From Phycisphaerae bacterium (GTDB lineage: Bacteria > Planctomycetota > Phycisphaerae > JAAYCJ01): DNA of 36,428 nucleotides. The notes below the pieces were generated by a model, which saw only the letters and a list, made by a program, of their open reading frames with translations, ran no database searches and was not told the DNA's origin. This document shows positions 32,905 to 36,428 of this stretch, one piece after another. The stretch is from NCBI GenBank assembly GCA_012729815.1, contig JAAYCJ010000149.1, positions 1-36,428 on the forward strand, written 5' to 3'. Within the stretch, counting starts at the first letter, position 1. Each line of letters begins with the position of its first letter. The position numbers and the translations under genes were made by a program.

Positions 32905-33984
32905 ATGGAATTGACGTACAAGGCGGATTTTGAGCGGGTCAAGGACGTTTGGCGGCATTTTTGGAACGGGGAGATGGTGAGGCGTCCGGTGGTGGTGGCG
33001 CAGGTGTCGCGGCCGGGGCGGTCGCCGGGCAATCCGGGTCACCTGCGGTATCTGCGGGCGAACACGCGGCGTTGGGAGGAGCAGCTTGCCGCGATCGACG
33101 GTTGGCTTGAGGACACGGTGTTTCTGGCTGAGGCGGTTCCGCATTTTTCGCCCGATCACGGTCCGGATCAGTTCGCGTGTTTTTACGGCGGTCGGCTGGA
33201 GCATTCGGCGGACTCGCCGGAGACGAACTGGGTGCATCCGTTTGTGGACGGGCGGTGGGAGGCGGTGCTGCCGTTGCGGCTGGATCGGGAGGGTTCGGTG
33301 TGGACGAGCGTGATGGGTCTGAGCCGGCGGCTGGCTGAGCATGCCCGTGGGCGGTATCTGGTTGGTGCGTGCGACCTGCATTCGAATCTGGATACGCTTC
33401 TGGCGATGCGTGGCGGCGAGGGGCTGTGCATGGATTTGATCGAGCAGCCGGAGGCGATCGGGGCGGCGATGGCCGATGTGCGGCAGGCGTATCCGGTGGT
33501 GTACGACGAGCTGTATCGGGCGGGCGGGATGAGCGCCGAGACGGGTTCGATCGGCTGGATTCCGTTCTGGTCGGACGGGCGGTTCGCCACGATCCAGTGC
33601 GACGCGCTGTGCATGATCAGCCCGCAGATCAGCCGGAAGATCGTGTTGCCCGCGCTGGAGGAGGAGGCGGAGTTTCTGGATCACTGCGTGTTGCACTTCG
33701 ACGGGCCGGGGGCGTTGCCGCATCTGGACGACGTGCTGTCGATCAAGGCGATCGACGCGATTCAGTGGGTGCCGGGCGACGGGCAGAAGCCGATGCGCGA
33801 GTGGATTGACGTGCTGCAGCGGTGCCAGGCGGCGGGCAAGGCGGTGCAGGTGTACGGGGTGAATCCCGAGCACGTACGTCAGTTGCACAGGATTCTCAAG
33901 CCGGAGAAGACGGTTTATTGCGTTGAGGCGGAGCATCCGGATCGGATAAACGAGTTGCTCGATTGGCTGGAGAAGAACACGTAG
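32905..33984 (+). CDS. Uroporphyrinogen-decarboxylase-like protein (359 aa)
   Basis: The protein has the UroD/MtaA-type barrel, with a conserved end DFERVKDVWRHFW start and later the HFDGPGALPHLDDVLSIK segment (His at the position of methyltransferase metal ligands) and AIQWVPGDGQKP. Planctomycete relatives occur in sugar-degradation loci rather than in heme synthesis and are thought to be methyl- or demethylating enzymes, perhaps with a corrinoid partner; none is visible next to it. It lacks the Arg-rich substrate motif of true UroD that I would expect near the N-terminus, which argues against heme synthesis. CAGGAG lies about 9 nt before the ATG. The SGNH gene follows 55 nt later. Confidence 0.8.
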   Translation: MELTYKADFERVKDVWRHFWNGEMVRRPVVVAQVSRPGRSPGNPGHLRYLRANTRRWEEQLAAIDGWLEDTVFLAEAVPHFSPDHGPDQFACFYGGRLEHSADSPETNWVHPFVDGRWEAVLPLRLDREGSVWTSVMGLSRRLAEHARGRYLVGACDLHSNLDTLLAMRGGEGLCMDLIEQPEAIGAAMADVRQAYPVVYDELYRAGGMSAETGSIGWIPFWSDGRFATIQCDALCMISPQISRKIVLPALEEEAEFLDHCVLHFDGPGALPHLDDVLSIKAIDAIQWVPGDGQKPMREWIDVLQRCQAAGKAVQVYGVNPEHVRQLHRILKPEKTVYCVEAEHPDRINELLDWLEKNT

Positions 33985-34039
33985 GAGACGGCGGCGCGGC
34001 GGTTTTGGGCAAGCGGGCATGGGACCTGGAGGTTGTGCC

Positions 34040-34705
34040 ATGAGCGGTGAGAGCGGTTCGAACGGGTCGGAAGGGCTGAACGGTTTGACAGTCTGCAATC
34101 GCGGCCGCTGCGGGCAGAACAGTGGTGTTGTCCGTGAGCGGTTCGGTGAGGACGTTCTGCAGTTGGATCCGAAGCCGGATTACGTGCTGATCTACATCGG
34201 GATGAACGACGTCATCAACGACCGGTTTTTCACGCCGCTTGCGGCGTACATAGAGAACGTTTCGTGGATGGTTGAGCGGGCCCGGGCGGCGGGGATCGAG
34301 CCGGTGATCTGCACGATCCACCATTGCGTGGAGGAGAAGGTTTACCCGCACCACCCGCGGGAGAAGTTCGGCGAGGAGACGCCCAACGTGAAGATGGACC
34401 GCTATAACGCGGCGCTAAGGAGGCTGGCGGCGGAGCGGGAGGTCGCGCTGGCGGATTTCGGCGGCGTGACCGATGGCACGGAGCGGTCGGCGTTCCTGAG
34501 CGAGGACGGCGTGCATTTGACGGCGGGCGGCAATGTGCTGCTGGCCAGGTGCTTCCTGGAGGTGATCGGCCCGAGGCTGCGCGGGCGGGAGACGATCGTC
34601 TGCTGCGGCGACAGTTTGACGTACGGGTACGGGAATCAGGGCGCGGGCACGGCTGATGGAGAGACGTACCCGGCGATGCTGCGGCGGTTTCCGATCTATC
34701 CATAG
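34040..34705 (+). CDS. SGNH/GDSL-type hydrolase with circularly permuted motif order (221 aa)
   Basis: All SGNH blocks are present but rotated. Block II comes first, in LTVCNRGRCGQNSG (Gly22), then block III YVLIYIGMNDV (Gly54, Asn56, Asp57), block V SEDGVHLTAGG (Asp156, His159) and only then block I, TIVCCGDSLTYGYG (Ser192). In known family members block I is at the N-terminus. Joining the C-terminal YPAMLRRF to the N-terminal LTVCNRG restores the normal order, and the loop between block V and block I is only about 20 residues, so the whole is one domain rather than two. The ATG at 34040 has GGAGG 7 nt upstream. The last 10 nt overlap the convergent gene at the right. It is probably an esterase or acyl hydrolase, co-transcribed with the UroD-like gene. 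An alternative is a fusion of two truncated copies. Confidence 0.8.
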   Translation: MSGESGSNGSEGLNGLTVCNRGRCGQNSGVVRERFGEDVLQLDPKPDYVLIYIGMNDVINDRFFTPLAAYIENVSWMVERARAAGIEPVICTIHHCVEEKVYPHHPREKFGEETPNVKMDRYNAALRRLAAEREVALADFGGVTDGTERSAFLSEDGVHLTAGGNVLLARCFLEVIGPRLRGRETIVCCGDSLTYGYGNQGAGTADGETYPAMLRRFPIYP

Positions 34706-36428
34706 AGCCGATGCAGCAGGGTTTCGAAGTCATCCGGCAAGGCGGCCAAGGGTTTTCCGTCGCCTTTTTGGGCGTAGCGGATGATGTTCATCAGCATGCG
34801 GTCGGCGGCGGGGTTGATATCCAGGTTTTCAAGGATGCGGAGCGTGTTGATGAAGAACCGGCCGTGGCCGAAGCGATAGCCCGCAAACAGCAACCCTGCC
34901 GCATAACCGGTCCTGAACTTTTCACTCAGCATTCCATCGTTATAGCCCGTGGCAAACCAGACCGCGGCCACGTCATCGGGGGTGTCCTGTCCGTCAAAGA
35001 CGAAGTGTGTAATGACCTGATCGTAGTACTCCCAATCCATGACGCCCTTGCACGGCAAACCCTCGAACACCGGATGCGGCTTGGCCAGGCATTCCTTGTG
35101 ATAGACCCAGTCACCGAACGAGTAACCGCACCCCTTGGTTTCCAAAGGCAGCCAGCCGACGGCATTGTCACCGCGTTTGAAGGCGTACGGCGAGAGGAAG
35201 ACGACCGTGCTTCCCCTGGCGATTCGCTGCAGGAGTGCCTTCCACTGGTCGAGCCCGGCGTCGGTTTTGGAGAGGTCACCGACAAGGATGACCTCACGGA
35301 CCTGGGGATGGGCTGCAAAGGGCCGGCAGGTGACCCCGTGGGCCGTCAGCCAGTGCTCGGTTTCCCGGCTCAGGCCCAGGACGGTGACTTCGCTCTTTGA
35401 CGCGGCGACGGGCGCCGACACGTAGAACTTTCGTCTGGCCCCGGCGGGTGCTCCGCCCTGCTCCAGCGACGCGGTAAACTCGTACGCTCCGGGCGGAACA
35501 TTCAGTTTAATGCTTTCACGGAAGACGACGACCGCCAGCGGGCCATCGGACCCTTTTGGCGGCTGGGGTACGCTGAACGTGACGTGTTTTTCCCAGACGG
35601 CTCCCGGTTCACCAAACACTTTGAGATCCGCGGCATAGGTTCCCGGTTTGAGTACATCCTCGGTTGCCAGCACGGCTTCGATCGTAAACTGCCGGCCTGC
35701 ATAGACATGACCCGGTTCGACGAAGAGGCACCACCGCAGCGGGGCCCAGCCGTCCCGCAGGGCATCCATCATCCCGGGTTTGAACTCGCGGGCATACGTC
35801 CAACGGCCGTCCCCCACGCCGACATCGACCATGGTGGTGATGCTGAGGCCGCACATTTTGGGGTTGGAGCGGATCAGATCATACTCCAGGCGCGACTGAC
35901 GCACCTGCTGGGCGTAGCTGTCGATGAACATATCCTCGGGGAACGCATAGACGTCGTTCATTCCGAACCGGTTCCAGTCGGCGGTTAACAGTTCGACCTG
36001 CTTTTGCAGCCGCTTGTAGTTATTGAGCTCCACGGAAGCGCCGGCTTGCTGATATTGCCTTAAGCCATCGATGACATTTAACAGACTTCCCGTGCCGGAC
36101 TCCGATTGAAATATGGGTTTGGCGTCACGGCCGTGATATTTGAAGAAATCCCGACTTGGTTGATCATAGGGTACGAGCGGGTAGTGATGACAATCCCCCA
36201 AGACCCGCTGGACCGTTTGGCCCAGTCCGCCCTGAACAAAGGTGGGGTGGGTTTTTCCCTCGGCGTCGACTTCGTCGGCCGGCAGTCCGCCGGTCGTTTC
36301 CTTTCCCCACTGGGCTTCCCATTCGGTGCTTCCGGGGTTGGACAGGGAGCCGACGGTGATGATGCCGTCCCATCGGCCGCTGTTTAGCAGCACGAGGCGG
36401 GAGTCGTCCAGGGCCCGTACTTTTTCCA
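34696..36428 (-). CDS. GH2-like glycosidase with C-terminal beta and GATase-like domains, 5' end cut by window edge
   Basis: The frame runs to the edge with no stop, so the first codons are missing (577 residues visible). The start reads RALDDSRLVLLNSGRWDG, a TIM-barrel segment typical of GH2-type enzymes, and PIFQSESGTGSLLNVIDG contains a Glu at the place of the nucleophile. Later parts are a beta sandwich (about 240-340) and a C-terminal GATase-like domain (VREVILVGDLSKTDAGLDQW, GSTVVFLSPYAFKRGDNAVG) seen in some bacterial beta-galactosidases. Identification is by layout only. Its base use is less skewed than the genes just left of it. It overlaps the SGNH gene tail to tail by 10 nt. Confidence 0.65.
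   Translation of the reverse strand, partial: EKVRALDDSRLVLLNSGRWDGIITVGSLSNPGSTEWEAQWGKETTGGLPADEVDAEGKTHPTFVQGGLGQTVQRVLGDCHHYPLVPYDQPSRDFFKYHGRDAKPIFQSESGTGSLLNVIDGLRQYQQAGASVELNNYKRLQKQVELLTADWNRFGMNDVYAFPEDMFIDSYAQQVRQSRLEYDLIRSNPKMCGLSITTMVDVGVGDGRWTYAREFKPGMMDALRDGWAPLRWCLFVEPGHVYAGRQFTIEAVLATEDVLKPGTYAADLKVFGEPGAVWEKHVTFSVPQPPKGSDGPLAVVVFRESIKLNVPPGAYEFTASLEQGGAPAGARRKFYVSAPVAASKSEVTVLGLSRETEHWLTAHGVTCRPFAAHPQVREVILVGDLSKTDAGLDQWKALLQRIARGSTVVFLSPYAFKRGDNAVGWLPLETKGCGYSFGDWVYHKECLAKPHPVFEGLPCKGVMDWEYYDQVITHFVFDGQDTPDDVAAVWFATGYNDGMLSEKFRTGYAAGLLFAGYRFGHGRFFINTLRILENLDINPAADRMLMNIIRYAQKGDGKPLAALPDDFETLLHRLYG

Follow-up and report, generated by a model that had tools for sequence, protein, structure and literature searches.

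A circularly permuted and apparently undescribed branch of the SGNH hydrolase family in bacteria

Introduction

SGNH hydrolases of the Lipase_GDSL_2 family (PF13472), such as BDI_0976 (3p94) and the acetylxylan esterase Axe2 (3w7v), carry four catalytic blocks in the order I-II-III-V. We analysed a stretch of 36,428 nucleotides, contig JAAYCJ010000149.1 of a Phycisphaerae bacterium, which is called the window here. It encodes a protein that has the same four blocks and is predicted to have the same fold, but that begins at strand 2 and carries the nucleophile block I at its C-terminus. A preliminary description read this protein as a circularly permuted SGNH hydrolase of a form not known to have been described, for which tandem duplication and deletion would account. 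The locus therefore raises the question of whether this order is a true permutation or a faulty joining of two genes and, if it is true, whether it is new, how it arose, and what the protein does.

The coding sequence and its catalytic blocks

The gene and its conserved segments are located in the window as follows:

34040..34705, forward strand: coding sequence of the permuted SGNH hydrolase, 221 amino acids, with the stop codon TAG at 34703-34705
34097..34123, forward strand: block II, NRGRCGQNS, with the oxyanion residue Gly22 (alignment; model strand at residues 17-20)
34199..34210, forward strand: block III, GMND, with Asn56 (alignment)
34505..34516, forward strand: block V, DGVH, with Asp156 and His159 (alignment)
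34601..34633, forward strand: block I, CCGDSLTYGYG, with the nucleophile Ser192 (alignment and HMM; model strand at 185-190 and helix at 192-195)
34661..34690, forward strand: helix 1 segment, ETYPAMLRRF, the final element (alignment and model)

The reading frame, its coordinates, and the positions of Gly22, Asn56, Asp156/His159, and Ser192, numbered from the ATG at 34040, agree with the preliminary description. A ribosome-binding-like GGAGG (34028-34032) precedes this ATG, and alignments with homologues begin at about residue 12-16 of the protein; the in-frame ATG at 34019, further upstream, is a less likely alternative start. All SGNH catalytic residues are present, and the oxyanion-hole residues Gly22 and Asn56 are invariant in a twelve-row alignment. 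The order of the blocks is II-III-V-I (G-N-H-S) and not the canonical I-II-III-V. Block II, part of the canonical strand 2 element, lies near the N-terminus, whereas block I, which is N-terminal in usual SGNH proteins, lies within the last 35 residues, with GDSL at residues 190-193. The protein stops where a canonical enzyme continues into strand 2. Unlike most of its relatives, it has no signal peptide.

Evidence for circular permutation

In its natural order, the window protein matched PF13472 with 79 bits over profile positions 32-176 of 178 only, that is, without block I. When the last 38 residues were transferred to the N-terminus, which places block I at the front, the match covered profile positions 1-176. 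The same rotation extended the PF00657 match from positions 67-207 to 1-207 and raised its score from 54 to 62.5 bits, and the alignment with Axe2, one of the sequence matches in the PDB, became full length with an E value that fell from 3e-7 to 2e-9. A rotated family profile (A3) aligned end to end with canonical-order relatives from the same genomes. Four such sisters (L105, L133, L137, and L006), which belong to the same phyla as the permuted proteins, have the canonical S-G-N-H order and very similar blocks (VVCFGDSITxxGYPxxLATLL..EVINAGVGGN) and scored 129-155 bits, with L105 as the best match at 155 bits.

We also trained an HMM on the N-terminal block I alone of 30 canonical-order relatives from similar genomes. 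In 51/51 permuted domains, this canonical block I model found a match within the last 60 residues (median 18.7 bits), and it scored 15.5 bits at the C-terminus of the window protein, while shuffled C-termini (n = 1020) reached at most 8.4 bits. The match of block I at the C-terminus thus exceeds chance. In close pairs of homologues, block I showed dN values of 0.01-0.21 against dS values of at least 0.26, and it is under purifying selection, as is the core.

These results bear on the possibility that the order is an artefact of assembly or annotation, in which a headless first copy runs into the beginning of a second, truncated SGNH gene that supplies block I. Such a joining could yield the order II-III-V-I by itself, and the assembly that holds the window (G000) is fragmented into 367 contigs. 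However, more than 50 colinear homologues occur in independent genomes, including the one-contig genomes G788, G913, and G965; neither a second core after block I nor a block I ahead of the core is found; and selection maintains the C-terminal block I. We consider that an artefact has next to no chance of being the explanation, and these colinear homologues exclude the refuting case named in the preliminary description, in which an assembly error attaches a truncated second gene.

The predicted structure also favours a true permutation. The AlphaFold2 model of the window protein, built with the twelve-row alignment, reached a pLDDT of 93 overall (above 90 in block I) and a pTM of 0.90. The modelled elements run from strand 2 through a helix, strand 3, a helix, strand 4, helices, strand 5, and the former C-terminal helix to strand 1 (185-190), the nucleophile turn and helix (192-195), and helix 1 (210-214). 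This confident model predicts an SGNH alpha/beta/alpha fold whose elements follow the order expected of a permutant. All top Foldseek matches were SGNH proteins, namely GDSL lipases/acylhydrolases and acetylxylan esterases; because the method depends on chain order, the alignments covered just ~160 residues (blocks II-V), with a TM score of ~0.6. For the divergent member L080, modelled without an alignment, AlphaFold2 gave a poor model (pLDDT 59), which we set aside.

The alignment, the Pfam rotation, and the block I HMM confirm the order II-III-V-I with a C-terminal serine block, and the homologue alignment and the secondary structure of the model agree on a cut after helix 1 and before strand 2. 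The evidence strongly supports a circular permutation of an SGNH hydrolase, opened between helix 1 and strand 2.

Breadth of the permuted family

The preliminary description had suggested counting homologues with the rearranged order. The permuted order is common to 51 proteins in 40 genomes, each checked individually, and to 2 more from a third phylum. All 53 checked proteins end in block I, and GDS, NxGxxG, GxND, and DGxH are kept in nearly all of them, while some have an identity of about 30%. The first colinear homologues were L005 (48% identity), L010 (67%), L011 (73%, from a Kiritimatiellae MAG), and L012 (67%). Where a single odd protein had originally been noticed, the order in fact spans a wide family.

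In the class of the window genome, the permuted protein is rare (2 of 397 genomes with the first profile, A1), and 10 of 346 genomes have it in the class of L011. A wider search used A2, a profile built from twelve members, and in the window's own phylum it found the protein in at least 8 of 294 genomes, one-contig genomes included. About 28 of 289 genomes in the phylum of L011 had an A2 match that reached the C-terminal block I. We infer that this phylum is distinct from that of the window, since the two phylum searches have no genomes in common. A permuted protein is also encoded by 2 of 175 genomes in the phylum to which a Chryseobacterium genome belongs. Searches for relatives in viral contigs and in phages found none, and the plasmid search gave one weak match (27% over residues 19-197).

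Origin of the permuted order

For the history of the permutation, we used trees of the core only (blocks II-V, with block I omitted), which contained 49-50 permuted and 22-30 canonical rows. In these trees, the permuted rows need at most two order changes relative to the canonical rows. One reading is that canonical SGNH proteins were permuted several times, independently and always at one position, and the free tree does require two state changes. However, the tree that holds all permuted rows together had a log-likelihood 6.09 above that of the free search, with a p-AU of 0.657, and therefore one origin is not rejected; moreover, no well-supported branch demands more than one change. We consider repeated origins unlikely. 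A single origin is compatible with the tree and is the simplest reading of it.

In the textbook route to a permutation, a gene is duplicated in tandem and then loses the first block I and the second core, and such an origin, as proposed in the preliminary description, is plausible for the permuted SGNH order. We looked for duplication intermediates, with block I flanking the core on both sides or with two cores per protein, and found none in 127 ORF instances, which represent fewer distinct proteins as the loci overlap. Because no intermediate was found, the duplication origin is unproven.

Comparison with known permuted SGNH proteins

Circular permutation has been described for the SGNH domains of AlgJ/AlgX (PMC4148444), PatB1/DHHW (PMC9487903), and WssI (PMC10302187), all with the order H-S-G-N. 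Like the window family, these proteins have a permuted SGNH domain, and in them the triad is kept in space (PMC4148444, PMC9487903, PMC10302187). However, AlgX/AlgJ, DHHW, and WssI are cut between blocks III and V, differ in the blocks themselves (Tyr in place of Asn, DxH), and are O-acetyltransferases, whereas the window family is cut between blocks I and II, has the order G-N-H-S, and keeps canonical blocks. We rejected membership of the window protein in the AlgX/AlgJ/DHHW group, as its order is II-III-V-I and not V-I-II-III and as no ALGX or DHHW Pfam family matched it at E <= 0.1. The SGNH superfamily already includes permuted proteins such as AlgX, so the altered order speaks only against the window protein as a canonical member.

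Among the sequence-detectable PDB chains, none aligned with the family profile past the block V region into block I, and in the open-access literature we found no permuted SGNH order other than H-S-G-N. Two candidate reports were set aside: in a paper on bdelloid GDSL proteins (PMC5408684), the claimed circular permutation concerns a scaffold and not a protein, and in recent carbohydrate-esterase papers the word permutation refers to statistics only. Accordingly, the earlier claim that no permuted SGNH case of this form is known holds in part. On the one hand, AlgX, AlgJ, PatB1, and WssI are permuted SGNH proteins; on the other hand, the G-N-H-S order is absent from the literature that we searched. 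The permuted branch of the SGNH family is real and apparently undescribed, and its cut point appears to be a second natural one.

Putative function and catalytic mechanism

We consider it very probable that the window protein is a functional SGNH/GDSL serine esterase of a stable, circularly permuted lineage with the order II-III-V-I, most likely an O-acetyl (carbohydrate) esterase. The substrate class that we infer follows from the domains fused to the permuted family, from neighbouring glycosidases, and from the similarity to acetylxylan esterases. Most members have signal peptides or are fused to glycosidase or CBM domains, and secreted single-domain members exist (signal peptides judged by eye). 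In L010, the permuted domain forms the C-terminus of an NPCBM and Melibiase/GH36 protein, and in L012 that of a protein of 570 aa, the first half of which matches no Pfam family. In L078, L083, L085, L088, L091, and L107, the permuted SGNH domain is N-terminal and DUF6259 is C-terminal, sometimes with CBM_4_9 between them, and these fusions are likely uncharacterised polysaccharide-degrading enzymes. In L037, the permuted domain precedes an FAD_oxidored domain.

Two genes adjoin the permuted gene in the window:

32905..33984, forward strand: upstream gene, 359 amino acids, with no Pfam family and no meaningful NCBIfam match
34696..36426, reverse strand: convergent gene, truncated at the contig end, with a GH2-like C-terminal region and no Pfam match

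By eye, the upstream product looks like a barrel of the uroporphyrinogen-decarboxylase/methyltransferase type. In L010, the neighbour of the permuted gene encodes a GH2-type glycosidase, and the convergent product matches the C-terminal half of that enzyme with 39% identity across 510 aa; a relative of this glycosidase thus converges on the window gene. The region common to the two proteins is a conserved domain without a name.

The fold would be the usual flavodoxin-like SGNH sandwich, in which the former C-terminal helix would lead through a short linker (~5 residues) to strand 1 and the nucleophile elbow, with the chain ends lying between helix 1 and strand 2. We expect catalysis to proceed as in canonical enzymes: Ser192 would attack the ester, His159/Asp156 would act as the relay, and Gly22, Asn56, and the backbone of Ser192 would form the oxyanion hole. 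Most members would probably deacetylate polysaccharides outside the cytoplasm, while the window member may act on imported oligosaccharides.

Considering that O-acetyl transfer is the function of the permuted SGNH proteins known so far (PMC4148444, PMC9487903, PMC10302187), the folded permutant could instead be a polysaccharide O-acyltransferase similar to AlgX or PatB1. However, its blocks II, III, and V read as in canonical hydrolases (NxGxxG, GxND, DGxH), where in AlgX/AlgJ a Tyr replaces the Asn of block III and DxH stands in place of DGxH; in addition, the closest structures are hydrolases, the fusion partners are glycosidases, and the AlgX and DHHW families of Pfam are unmatched. We therefore regard acyltransferase activity as improbable and favour an esterase.

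Individual members deviate at the catalytic positions. In L079 (G862:C60), a 1351-aa protein, block I reads CFGASLT, so that Ala takes the place of the Asp in GDS (GAS) and the Ser is kept. L113 (G1062:C66:113-754) is a permuted copy with a TAG ahead of block I, either a pseudogene or a sequencing error. In L095 (G1078:C94), a 1448-aa protein lies beside a permuted paralogue of 271 aa and reads GDD in place of GDS and DGIRL in place of DGxH, with the catalytic Ser changed to Asp and the His to Arg; judged by these residues, it is probably catalytically dead and adjoins an intact paralogue. Since some members lack catalytic residues, not every permuted member is a hydrolase. Such losses, together with the truncation of L113, would suit a family of degenerate pseudo-enzymes, that is, non-catalytic carbohydrate-binding remnants. 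However, Ser, Gly, Asn, Asp, and His are retained in nearly all members and the dN of block I is well below its dS, so we hold this reading to be very improbable for the family and keep to a functional esterase.

Conclusions

In summary, we think it likely that these proteins form an undescribed SGNH family that represents a second, independent natural permutation (G-N-H-S) of single origin, which spread to three or more bacterial phyla and became part of multidomain enzymes for polysaccharide degradation. If this is true, the family would merit its own Pfam entry and possibly its own carbohydrate-esterase family. As PF13472 and PF00657 match its members without block I, automatic annotation may label them as truncated GDSL proteins in which the serine is missing. 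The SGNH fold would tolerate a second natural permutation, with a C-terminal nucleophile elbow and an apparently complete active site. The wide family and its canonical sisters in the same genomes provide a good natural system for the rise and fixation of permutations, and the fusions suggest candidate carbohydrate esterases in bacterial degraders of complex glycans.
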